Below, piece by piece: positions 28,601 through 34,600 of a stretch of 64,000 bases of DNA. The stretch is from Norana najaformis (taxonomy: Eukaryota; Annelida; Clitellata; Crassiclitellata; Hormogastridae), in NCBI GenBank assembly GCA_964023275.1, contig OZ029929.1, forward strand, positions 7,448,437 through 7,512,436, given 5' to 3'. The stretch's first letter is position 1. Each line of letters begins with the position of its first letter. The translations under genes and the position numbers were made by a program. Below the pieces are notes generated by a model. The model did no database searches. It saw only the letters and a program-made list of their open reading frames with translations, and was not told where the DNA came from.

Positions 28601-31600
28601 CACTGCGCATGGCAAATCGGATTCGGCAATCGGTATACACGCCCAAATATCTACAAGTGTAGAAATGTATATATGGCATTAAATGAATATACATTTAATG
28701 TTAGGCTAAGCGTAACAGTTAGCACCCCATATATCATATGCAACAAGCTGTATATGTGTATGTATATACATGTTTATTTGTAAATATGTATATATTATGT
28801 GCATGCCTGTGATACTTCGGCACCTGTATGCATAATATATGAATACATACATATGAACATACAATAGGTATAATATCTATATAAATATATTGTAGTGGGT
28901 GTATATCATAGAACTGATGAAAGTTTGATTGGGTCTGGTTAGTGTAAGCAAAAGTGTAGTCGGGGTCATAAGTCAGATTGAACTCGTTTGTTACAGAACC
29001 AGAAGGGCGGGGGCCCTGCAAAGAGGAAAGAAGGGAGGAAGGGAGAACCTGAGTGAGGGAAAGGTCAAGAAAGCTACTGACAGGTGTCAAGGTCAGACTA
29101 ACCGTCAGATGTACACAGGCAAGATGCACCGCCTGGCAGCGTTTCCCTAGGTCTCTCAGTAGCTTGGTGCGAAAATGTTTTGAAGAATTGGAGCGGATGT
29201 TGCTGTCAAAAAAGTCACCATCTTCTTAGACTGCTGTTCTGTTTTTCTGCAGGAAACTTGTTTGCAAAATCCGGAAGATGAACAGGTTAAAATGCAACCA
29301 GCTTCTTTCAAAATCAGAAGAGTAGGCTATCTTTTCGTAAATCAGAAGACATCTCTTCTTAAATCAGAGCCCAGAATCGAAACCTTAAATGTCATGGTTG
29401 TTTAAAAGAGTTAATAAATATATTGTCTCATTGACCCTCTCAATTTTCATCCAGGTTCATTCCCCACCTCCGGGAAAAAAGTCACACAAACACGTATCCC
29501 AACTGTGCTAAATTTTATCTAAATGCTTCAGAATGCATTGGCGTCCGGGCCTCCACCCAGGGACTCCGCTGAGGAGCAGTGTAAGCCCCTCCAGACCCTC
29601 TACTGGTTAGGGGCTTCAACCTTTCAGTGCTCGTTGTTGCAGACCCCACAATTTTGATCCAGGTACTGGATCCCTCTGGCTAAAAAGTCACATATGTGCC
29701 ACTCTAGAGTGGCAGTGTAAGGGAATAGGGATAATCAAAGGTGGGAAAAGGTGGATGAGGTCTGCAGTGAGACATAGTAGCTCACTGTTTGTGTCGCTGA
29801 CTGTAAAGGGGTTTTTCAATGCAGCATAAAAGATAAGTAAGTAAGTAAGTATATTGTTTATTAACCAATAGCTAATCACACATCGGTTTACAAGTATTTA
29901 AGAACACAAGAAAAACTTAATATCCATACAACATCCTAATAATAAAACATTTACGTGTTAAATTATCAGCAGGAGGAATAATACAGTCACAGGTGTGGGG
30001 CCGTAGGGAATAACTGATAAACTTCAAATCTAAATCAACTACTTTGCAATATGTAAGTGAATGTTTCTCTAGCACCTTTTAAAGGCAATCAGATGCCAGA
30101 GTGCACTCTGGGCAACGAAGTCGTCTGTTAGCAAATAATGCAGCTCAAATAACTGGAAAGGTCACAAAGGCCTAAACTTCTCACTTAAGACTGCACTGAG
30201 ACGAGAGCGCTGCAGAAGTTTTGCGGTTTTTTCTTTATTTGTTTGAGCTGAGCATAACATCGCAGCAGCAGGTGCTTTTAGTGTATGCCAAGAATCCTGT
30301 AGATCTACAAACACTCCATCGAAATGCCTGCAGGCTATAGTTAGCCGGAGGTTCGGATTTGTCCAATTTCTTGGAAATGTTCCATACTCAGGGGAAAAGT
30401 CAAGCGTTGAAGCTGAATTAAAGAAATGGACCCGTAGGTTGGTTTTAGCCTTCAGCTGACCCCTTGCTGAGTTTAGTCTCATGTCCATGTCTGGTATCCT
30501 CGTGTCCATACTGTAGACTGTAGAGGGCGTATTTGGATCATGGGCCAAAGATTCGCTTTTGGTCTAAAACAGGGCATCAACACTTTGCCTACGTTGGTCC
30601 CACTTGCTGGAATCGTCTCCCTCGAGAATTGCGACTTGAGCTCCTTTCTCTCCCCCTCTCAGTGTTCCGCAGGCACCTGAAGACTGTACTGTTTAACACT
30701 GATTTTACTTTTTCGGGTCGGAAGCACCTCTGTTGAGTTTATCCTCTAAGAGGCGCTTTATAAATCTCAAATTACAATTGCAATTACAATTACAGCACAG
30801 AGATACTCAGAAAAGTGGGACCTCCACTTTTAACCCTACCAGCACATCTTCAAAACCGTGATGACCAAAAAGGTCGTTGATCAACGTTTATTCAACATAA
30901 AACTTTATCTTCCTTACTTGGCCCTTCCACCACTGACTCCCCACTGTCAAAACAGCCCTGACGCCCATGGCCTAGGGGTCGAATCCTGAAAACTCGGCAA
31001 ATCCAAGTCTGCTTGCCACAATTGTAACCATCAATGGTCAATCAATTACTTTAGTATAGGACTACAACTTGTATGCAGGGTTCATTCAAGCGTATCCACG
31101 AGACTGAGCGGTTCCGTAACAAACAAGGCTGTAAGCGCCGTGAAATTAAGTGCCTGTATAATAACACTGGCCAACAGAAAAAATTTTTTTTCTTGTTGCC
31201 TTCGGTTTTAGACCTGTTCTTGTGGTAATTTTGGGCGCTGATTCAGAAAATGTCATTGGATTGAGTGCATCAGGTCTAGTTTCTGAGATATCGTCGATTT
31301 TGTAAAGAAAACCCAGTCCACTCTTTAAACGATGTCTTTGGCAAAACTAGAATGTCATAATAAGCTTTATTTATGGCTAATTATAATTCTTGCTGATTCA
31401 TATAATCCCTACATCCTTATAATGTAAAATCAGCATATCTTGCCGCGTGCTGAGATATTGCTGATTCAACGAAATAACTATTCCGTAGCCTACACCTTTC
31501 TCAGCACTAAATTCATGGCCTCATTTAGAATTTATTTGTGCTTATACAGCGTTTCATGGTTTCGAACTATGTAAATTGATTATGCTGAAGTCAGCATTTA

Positions 31601-34600
31601 TAGCCTATATAAACCGCCTCCTGAAAGCTAGAGCAGCCGCAGTCGTCTTAGGGCATATTAAGAGTTGGTCGCAAGAACAATCTGTGAATGTGAGCATTAA
31701 ATAACTACATGTTCTTACTATTTTTTAGGTTAGTCATTTAATTTCTCAGATGCGAACATCCTTAAGGTTATGGCTACTTCCAGACGGAGCTGCATTAACC
31801 ATCCAGACATATTCTGCTACATTTGTGGGGAATACACACTAAAAGCAAACAGGAAACCGATTTCTGAGTTTGTAAAAAGAGCATATGTAGGTTATTTTGG
31901 TGTCAAACTTGGAGATCAAGATAAGCAATGGGCTCCTCATACAGTATGCAAAACTTGTATTGAACAATTGCGCCACTGGACAATTGGAAAGAGAAGCTGC
32001 CTGAAATTTGGTGTACCGATGGTTTGGAGGGAACAGATAAACCACTTCGACGACTGTTACTTTTGTATGGTTAATATCATAGGCATCAATCGAAATAATC
32101 GTCACAAGTTGTCTTACCCTGATATACCTTCAGCCAGGAGACCTGTTCCGCATTCGGATATTGTACCAGTTCCACCTTTTCGCGAACTACCTCAGCTCTC
32201 AGACGATGAGACTTGCATGTCCAATATCGGACAAGATGACGAAAGTGAAGAAAGTGGGGGCAGTGACAGTGATTTCCAATCAACTTCACACAGTGAACGT
32301 TTTGACCAAAAAGAGTTGAGTGATCTGACCAGGGACTTAAATCTTTCCAAAGAGTCCTCTGAATTGCTTGCGTCCAGACTAAAGGAAAAGAATGCACTTC
32401 AGCCTGGAACGAAAATTACAATTTATAGAAACAGAGAAAAGGATTTGCTGCCATTCTTTACCGAAGACAACAACCTAGTATTCTGTAATGACATCAGCAA
32501 CTTATTGAAGAAAATTGGTCTGTCGGATTACAGCCCAGATGAGTGGCGTCTTTTTATCGACAGTTCAAAACGTAGTCTGAAATGTGTGCTTTTAAATAAC
32601 GGCAACACATTTGGTTCTATTCCAATCGGTCACTCCACTGGGTGATGAAAGAAGAGTACAATGCCATCTCTTTAGTACTGGAAAAGATAAAATACAAAGA
32701 ACATCAATGGGTAATTTGTGTAGACTTGAAGATGGTAAATTTCCTCCTTGGTCAACAAAGTGGCTACACAAAGTATCCCTGCTTTTTGTGTCTTTGGGAC
32801 AGTAGAGCCAAGCATGAACATTGGACAAGAAAAGATTGACCTTCGAGGAAAGACATGGTGGTTGGAGCTCAAAATGTAATCAAGGAATCTTTGGTGGCAC
32901 GAGATAGGATCATACTGCCACCACTACATATAAAGCTAGGCCTGATGAAACAATTTGTCAGGGCTTTGAATAAAGAAGGTTCATGCTTCGAATACATAGT
33001 ACACAAGTTACCAGGAATTACAATGGAAAAATTGAAGGCTGAAATTTTCGATGGTCCACAGATCAGGCAACTTATGAATGACCCACTTTTCATACCATCA
33101 ATGAATGAAATCGAATCTTGTGCCTGGTCTTCCTTTGTTCTTGTAACTAAAAATTTTCTTGGCAACAAGAAGGCAGACAATTATGCACAACTAGTAGAGG
33201 ATATGCTTCTTCATTTCAACAAGCTTGGCTGCAACATGAGCATTAAAGTCCATTATCTCCACAGTCACTTAGATCGCTTTCCAGAGAATCTTGGTGACTT
33301 CAGCGAAGAGCAAGGTGAAAGATTTCATCCAAGACATCAAAACAATGGAAAATCGATATCAAGGAAGATGGGATGCACACATGATGGCAGACTATTGCTG
33401 GAATATTATGCGCGATTGTTCCGGCAGATGCCACACTCGGAAATCGTACAAAAGGAGCTTCTTCGGTGTCGAATGACTTGAAATTTTTATAACAAACTTG
33501 TTCTGTTTGGTATCATATAAGTACAGTTTCAGGTACTACCATTTTCTTTTAAGTATTTGTAGTATTATGTTTATTTAGTGTATCACATAATAAATTGAGC
33601 ACTACATAATTATAGCTATAGCCTTATGTTTTATGGGCGAGCAGAGGCAAGGACTGGTATATGGCATAATGTTCTATATCTCGAAAACTAGACCTGCTGG
33701 GAGAAAACTGGTGCCTTTTCTGGAATCAGCAGGTCAAATACACCCAGAAACAGTTCTAACATTTGAGGCAACAAATTATGTGTTGGCCAGTGTAAGCAAC
33801 GAGTATGGGGAGCACGGGGAGCATCGTAAGCCCCCCCCCCCCCCAGCTGGGTCTCGGAGCAAAGCCAGGAAACAAACGCATTTTGCCGAAATAAAACACA
33901 CCAGGAAGCGAGTGAGTGAAATCAGCTTGGAAATTACTGTCTATTGCGTGTTGGTCGTATCTGCCGACAAAGACTAATCACCGATCGGTGGGAGATACAC
34001 CTAGAAACATCTCATGTCTAATTATATGCAGTTCAGATTAACTGGGCAGCCATGTTCACAGTGCTTTTGAGAGGTTCTTAAAATGCGCTACATAAAAGAT
34101 TAGATACCCACATACGTACATACATACACATACATACATAAACACATACATACATACGTGCATACATATCATACATACATACACATAATACATACATACA
34201 TACACACATACACACATGCATACATACATGCATACATACATGCATACATATACATACATACACATACAAACATCCATACATACATACATACATGCATACA
34301 TATACATACCTGCATATGTATCATACATATACATACATACATACATACACACTTACATACATACATACATACATGTCGTTGTATTACATTACATTCTGTT
34401 TGTCTGTACAGCGTCGTCCTTAGGGAGTGCCGACTGCCCCGAGGGACAGGATATGATCTACTTCGACCCTGCTCCAGCCAGTCAAGACGTGAAGGAGGGC
34501 GACGACCTGTTGATCCGGTGCGACGTCTCCAGTCGCCAGCTGATCGTCTTCTACTGGACGTTCAACGGGAAAACGCTGGCCAACACGAGTCGACGCTTCC

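Follow-up and report, generated by a model that had tools for sequence, protein, structure and literature searches.

The locus raises the question of whether the single long gene that lies between inverted repeats in a 64,000-nucleotide stretch of the annelid Norana najaformis genome (assembly GCA_964023275.1, contig OZ029929.1, positions 7,448,437 to 7,512,436; the whole stretch is hereafter called the window) belongs to a DNA transposon with ends of its own and, if so, to which transposon group. We identify the interval 31165-33792 of the window as a complete DNA transposon with its own ends and a TAA target duplication, and we are highly confident that it is one decayed copy of an autonomous Chapaev3-group DNA transposon (CMC superfamily) that amplified recently. 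An earlier note on this DNA had proposed a nearly complete transposon of an unclassified family at 31164-33793, inside intron 1 of PTK7, encoding an orphan protein; its structural observations were borne out, and its family labels are revised below.

The ends of the element in the window

An exact 13-bp inverted terminus was found at 31164-31176 and 33781-33793, and TAA could be read directly at both edges. Subtraction of the TAA target duplication leaves an element of 2,628 bp (31165-33792) with exact ends of 12 bp. Behind the termini, about 120 bp of diverged inverted similarity reached a local alignment score of 58, a value attained by none of 500 single-base shuffles of the right 400 bp (maximum 35.5), and under stricter scoring the alignment spanned 31164-31291 and 33676-33793. 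These features, like the single long gene between them (present, though broken in this copy), had all been called in the earlier note. The window holds 69 overlapping inverted 13-mer matches at 1.5-4 kb spacing (the element's own among the 20 listed), so that the 13-bp match alone is not proof of a transposon; the element is proven because other copies share its ends and because empty sites exist.

Other copies share the ends and a 3-bp target duplication

The genome searched comprised 608 Mb in 17 contigs, and the best 40 of 1,318 DNA-search candidates were all read with their flanks. All 40 were 99% or 100% identical in the search, 39 of them over about positions 1-1927 of the query and the window copy over the full query, and upon realignment showed 98.8-99.2% identity to the window copy. 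Alignment of the copies, a check proposed in the earlier note, fixed the ends: both exact 12-bp ends were present in 31 of the 40, the window copy included, and the nine without both were excluded from the duplication count. A 3-bp target duplication flanked 21 of the 31; 2,000 rounds of shuffling the right flanks yielded 5.1 such copies on average and never more than 12. Other lengths were 2 bp (three copies, two of them also matching at 3 bp), 4 bp (two copies) and 5 bp (one copy), with none at 6-8 bp. The 21 duplications read TAA or TTA (six each), ATA (three) or one of six other sequences (one each), TWA accounting for 12, and were preceded by A in 18 cases and followed by T in 17. Among 63 distinct left flanks, TTA or TAA was found in 41 and A at position -4 in 54; among 38 distinct right flanks, TTA or TAA was found in 20 and T at +4 in 32. 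By eye, junctions of some of the ten exceptions (L004, L006, L014 and L019) read as a duplication followed by one to three extra bases before the terminus, as if cutting or joining had been imprecise.

Empty sites were recovered for one copy (L018), inserted in a repeat whose frame resembles a long interspersed nuclear element (LINE) reverse transcriptase, as judged by eye. When its flanks were joined with one TAA (240 bp) and used as the query, the best 40 of 487 candidates scored had a top identity of 98%. The two paralogous sites that were read both ran uninterrupted through the insertion point, which holds one TAA (context GCA-TAA-TA). The better one shares a contig with L018, at a distance of about 10 kb; a 7-bp length difference between the two sequences falls elsewhere in the stretch.

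Copy number and recent amplification

The 17-base left terminus (CACTGGCCAACA and the next five bases) had 1,318 exact matches in the genome (733 + 585) and its backwards control none; the identity of this number with that of the DNA-search candidates may be chance. In a protein search, identity over the second half of the protein was 99-100% for each of the best 139 of 5,104 candidates. Because 30 of the 31 copies with both exact ends differ from the majority by substitution distances of only 0.04-0.46%, the burst was recent, with the proviso that these copies come from the best search matches and the sample therefore leans towards young and whole ones. None of the 31 has diverged further than the window copy (0.61%). 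A whole frame of 560 residues or more starting with MATSRRSC was present in 32 of the 40 DNA-search copies (one of which, L006, encodes 570 residues with a different C-terminus) and in five of seven further copies from the protein search, each copy being counted once.

Thirty loci, the window's included, were found by the left end alone. In 29 of these the element extends over 1,767 bp or more, up to the limit of the loci, and in one it breaks off at 499, so that this sample gave no sign of a miniature derivative family. Four left termini in the same orientation lie on one contig (G000:C1, at 4020208, 4022512, 4024914 and 4027286) with a spacing of 2.3-2.4 kb, less than the 2.6-kb element, possibly forming a tandem array of shortened copies. 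From the low divergence and the whole genes of other copies, we regard the chances that the element is mobile in its host today as evenly balanced. Were it so, the genome would offer a natural, unrebuilt transposase of a group that shares motifs with RAG1, open to direct study.

The transposase gene and its conserved motifs

The one long gene inside the element lies on the plus strand and is broken in the window copy by two frameshifts and one premature TGA, leaving open pieces at 31770-32645, 32642-32839, 32855-33481 and 33291-33476, of which the parts assigned to the transposase are given in Table 1. The window copy is thus unable to make its own transposase any longer. In other copies the gene is a single frame of 567 residues with three N-terminal cysteine pairs, D264 (in WRLFIDSS) and D318 (in CVDLK) separated by 54 residues, CFLC at 337-340, H386 in PPLH, HYLHSH at 494-499 (H494-x4-H499) and SEEQGE at 511-516, in which E513 lies 14 and E516 17 residues beyond the H(4)H pair.

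Two other families in the same genome, whose sequences are joins of frame-broken copies, are each 49% identical to the 567-residue protein. The C(2)C, LH and H(4)H motifs and the candidate residues D264, D318 and E513/E516 are invariant across the three families (about 50% protein identity), and the three N-terminal cysteine pairs are conserved among them. A codon pattern for the sister-family motif had 1,356 exact matches in the genome (649 + 707) and its control none. Four of these places were read, of which L083 and L084 contained long frames, L086 a short frame with the motif and L085 no frame of 100 residues; the frames of L083 and L084 point to at least two further Chapaev3-like families in this genome.

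Assigned by motif, D264, D318 and E513 or E516 form a putative DDE triad, and the cysteine-rich N-terminus is a candidate Chapa domain, RAG1-like and in keeping with the published description. A sub-threshold zf-AD match falls in the same N-terminal cysteine region (window 31815-31979), and a distant link between the N-terminal domain of the transposon and ZAD domains is possible.

Taken as a working mechanism, the 567-residue protein would act as a DDE transposase for the element's own ends. Its N-terminal Chapa-type domain, probably zinc-binding, may contribute to recognition of the terminal repeats. The catalytic domain, of putative RNase-H-like fold, would contain Asp264, Asp318, either Glu513 or Glu516, and the C(2)C and H(4)H motifs. 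The enzyme would cut at the CAC/GTG ends and insert the element at a staggered 3-bp target within A-TWA-T, which would leave the 3-bp duplication.

Table 1 Features of the element in the window.
Feature	Position	Strand	Remarks
Left target-site duplication copy, TAA	31162..31164	.	Read directly
Left terminus, CACTGGCCAACA	31165..31176	+	Exact inverted match
Left terminal inverted repeat	31165..31291	+	Outer part exact, remainder diverged; local alignment
Transposase, N-terminal piece	31770..32645	+	Cysteine-rich (CYIC, CKTC, CYFC); first putative catalytic Asp (FIDSS)
Transposase, middle piece	32642..32836	+	Shifted frame, ends at premature TGA; second putative Asp (CVDLK), C(2)C (CFLC)
Transposase piece	32855..33331	+	LH (PPLH), H(4)H (HYLHSH), SEEQGERFH block with putative catalytic Glu
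Transposase, C-terminal piece	33291..33476	+	After second frameshift; fits the 567-residue frame of other copies
Right terminal inverted repeat	33676..33792	-	Local alignment
Right terminus, TGTTGGCCAGTG	33781..33792	-	Exact inverted match
Right target-site duplication copy, TAA	33793..33795	.	Read directly

Assignment to Chapaev3 and alternative readings

Chapaev elements in general are described as having CAC/GTG termini and duplications of 3 to 4 bp, and the Chapaev3 group as having TWA duplications always between A and T together with C(2)C, LH and H(4)H transposase motifs (PMC4079192). We place the element in Chapaev3 because it has CAC/GTG termini within inverted repeats, a 3-bp TWA duplication with A on its 5' side and T on its 3' side (as a preference), and all three protein motifs. 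The accounts in PMC4411706 and PMC12730594 agree as well. With the hallmarks of PMC4079192 that are readable from sequence present, the family is no longer unclassified, and its protein, which bears these three motifs, is not an orphan. The proposal that this protein is the element's own transposase very probably holds, given the same gene between the same ends in the copies read and the transposase motifs that it bears.

Several observations weigh against this assignment. It rests on published hallmarks, the named families having been compared by their published descriptions. TWA makes up just 12 of the 21 duplications, with A and T as neighbours in 81-86% of cases, compared with "always" in PMC4079192; an exact 3-bp duplication is absent from 10 of the 31 copies, three of which match at 4 or 5 bp. 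No Pfam family matched above its curated cut-off, the best being zf-AD (E 0.0014-0.0059), and PDB sequence and profile searches gave nothing credible, hence no solved relative; nor did searches of viral_contigs or genome_contigs return a relative. Single-sequence structure predictions of two partial pieces of the window protein had mean predicted local distance difference test scores (pLDDT) of 35.7 and 35.2, which are very low and gave no usable view of the RNase-H-like fold for which the earlier note had suggested looking. Apart from these points, an NCBIfam search of the window pieces gave no credible match, the PDB searches no match to RAG1, and Pfam reported zf-RING_UBOX only at E 1.3-1.5, far under the cut-off.

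The long gene might be a passenger, the ends being moved by the transposase of another family; other Chapaev3-like families are abundant in this genome, judging from the 1,356 motif matches, and could act in trans. However, gene and ends travel together in the copies read, 29 of the 30 left-end loci being followed by 1,767 bp or more of the element, and the gene, the only long one inside the element, bears transposase motifs, which makes this reading highly improbable. About equally improbable is an unclassified superfamily whose transposase has no relation to CMC, in which the resemblance to Chapaev3 in ends and motifs would be due to chance. The lack of a credible Pfam, NCBIfam or PDB family and a likeness established by description only would agree with it, but termini, TWA duplication, A and T neighbours and three protein motifs all fit Chapaev3. 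A PIF/Harbinger-type element, from a group that also makes TWA duplications and encodes a second, Myb-like protein, would agree with the 3-bp, often TWA, duplication seen here. It is the least credible of the alternatives and close to negligible, given the CAC/GTG ends, the single gene and the C(2)C-LH-H(4)H motif set found here and the absence of any Harbinger family among Pfam matches up to E 10 for three proteins.

Two other candidates were rejected: Transib/RAG1, as 5-bp duplications occur in only one of the 31 copies compared with 3-bp duplications in 21, and EnSpm/CACTA, as no EnSpm transposase family appeared when Pfam matches down to E 10 were listed for the same three proteins. Pfam contains EnSpm transposase models.

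The Chapaev3 assignment moves the sequence from an orphan protein to a known transposase group, one that has multiplied very recently in this genome; the element is ordinary in kind and stands out for its youth and number. Among the papers listed in the literature searches, none reported a Chapaev transposase shown at work, as far as titles and abstract openings tell, so that a young family with whole genes would be a practical starting point. CMC and Transib transposases have motifs in common with RAG1, the enzyme that rearranges antibody genes (PMC12730594).

Genomic setting

The earlier note had placed the element in intron 1 of PTK7. We take the Drosophila gene otk to be the fly relative of PTK7. 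A downstream frame (34216-34755), whose immunoglobulin (Ig) part lies about 0.7 kb past the element, matched Pfam Ig_3 (E 2.2e-08) and otk from chain residue 7 (6s9f, E 7.8e-12), a result that fits insertion either upstream of a PTK7-like gene or within one of its early introns. The match to otk supports the proposed neighbourhood in part; contactin-4 and MDGA1 chains outscore otk for this frame, and exon 1 was not located. An (ACAT)n array of 69 imperfect copies (34110-34374) lies just before the Ig-domain part of the same frame. Upstream, frames with low-density lipoprotein receptor class A and B repeats lie within 1789-9970. Elsewhere in the window, 63327-63926 contains part of a reverse transcriptase (Pfam RVT_1, E 1.6e-18) that probably belongs to a LINE, and frames 9461-9973 and 49243-49536 share, by eye, a stretch that is probably a repeated element.

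Comparison with known systems

EnSpm elements have CACTG ends and a 3-bp duplication. The present element resembles EnSpm/CACTA in both respects and differs in that no EnSpm transposase family was found among its Pfam matches. With Transib/RAG1 it would have in common its putative Chapa-type N-terminal region, the Chapa domain being a complex N-terminal zinc finger of Chapaev3 that occurs in part or whole in RAG1 relatives (PMC4411706), whereas Transib duplications are 5 bp long (PMC8355894) compared with 3 bp here. Chapaev elements outside Chapaev3 are similar in their CAC/GTG ends and CMC motifs (PMC4079192) and in their Chapa domain (PMC4411706), putative in the present protein, but duplications of 3 to 4 bp are given for Chapaev as a whole compared with 3 bp here, and in two Chapaev subgroups a RING finger follows the Chapa domain (PMC4411706), where the present protein has only the sub-threshold zf-RING_UBOX match. 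The closest agreement is with the Chapaev3 elements Merrow, Garfield and Conan, in the CAC/GTG ends, in a TWA duplication that A mostly precedes and T mostly follows, in the three protein motifs (C(2)C, LH and H(4)H) and in a number of several hundred copies or more. Protein and element lengths are also similar, with 556 residues in Garfield_BM compared with 567 here, and 2,289 bp in Garfield_BM and 2,451 bp in Merrow_PM compared with 2,628 bp here (PMC4079192). The Merrow and Garfield genes differ in having two exons; in its single open frame the present gene resembles most other Chapaev3 genes, which are apparently single-exon (PMC4079192).

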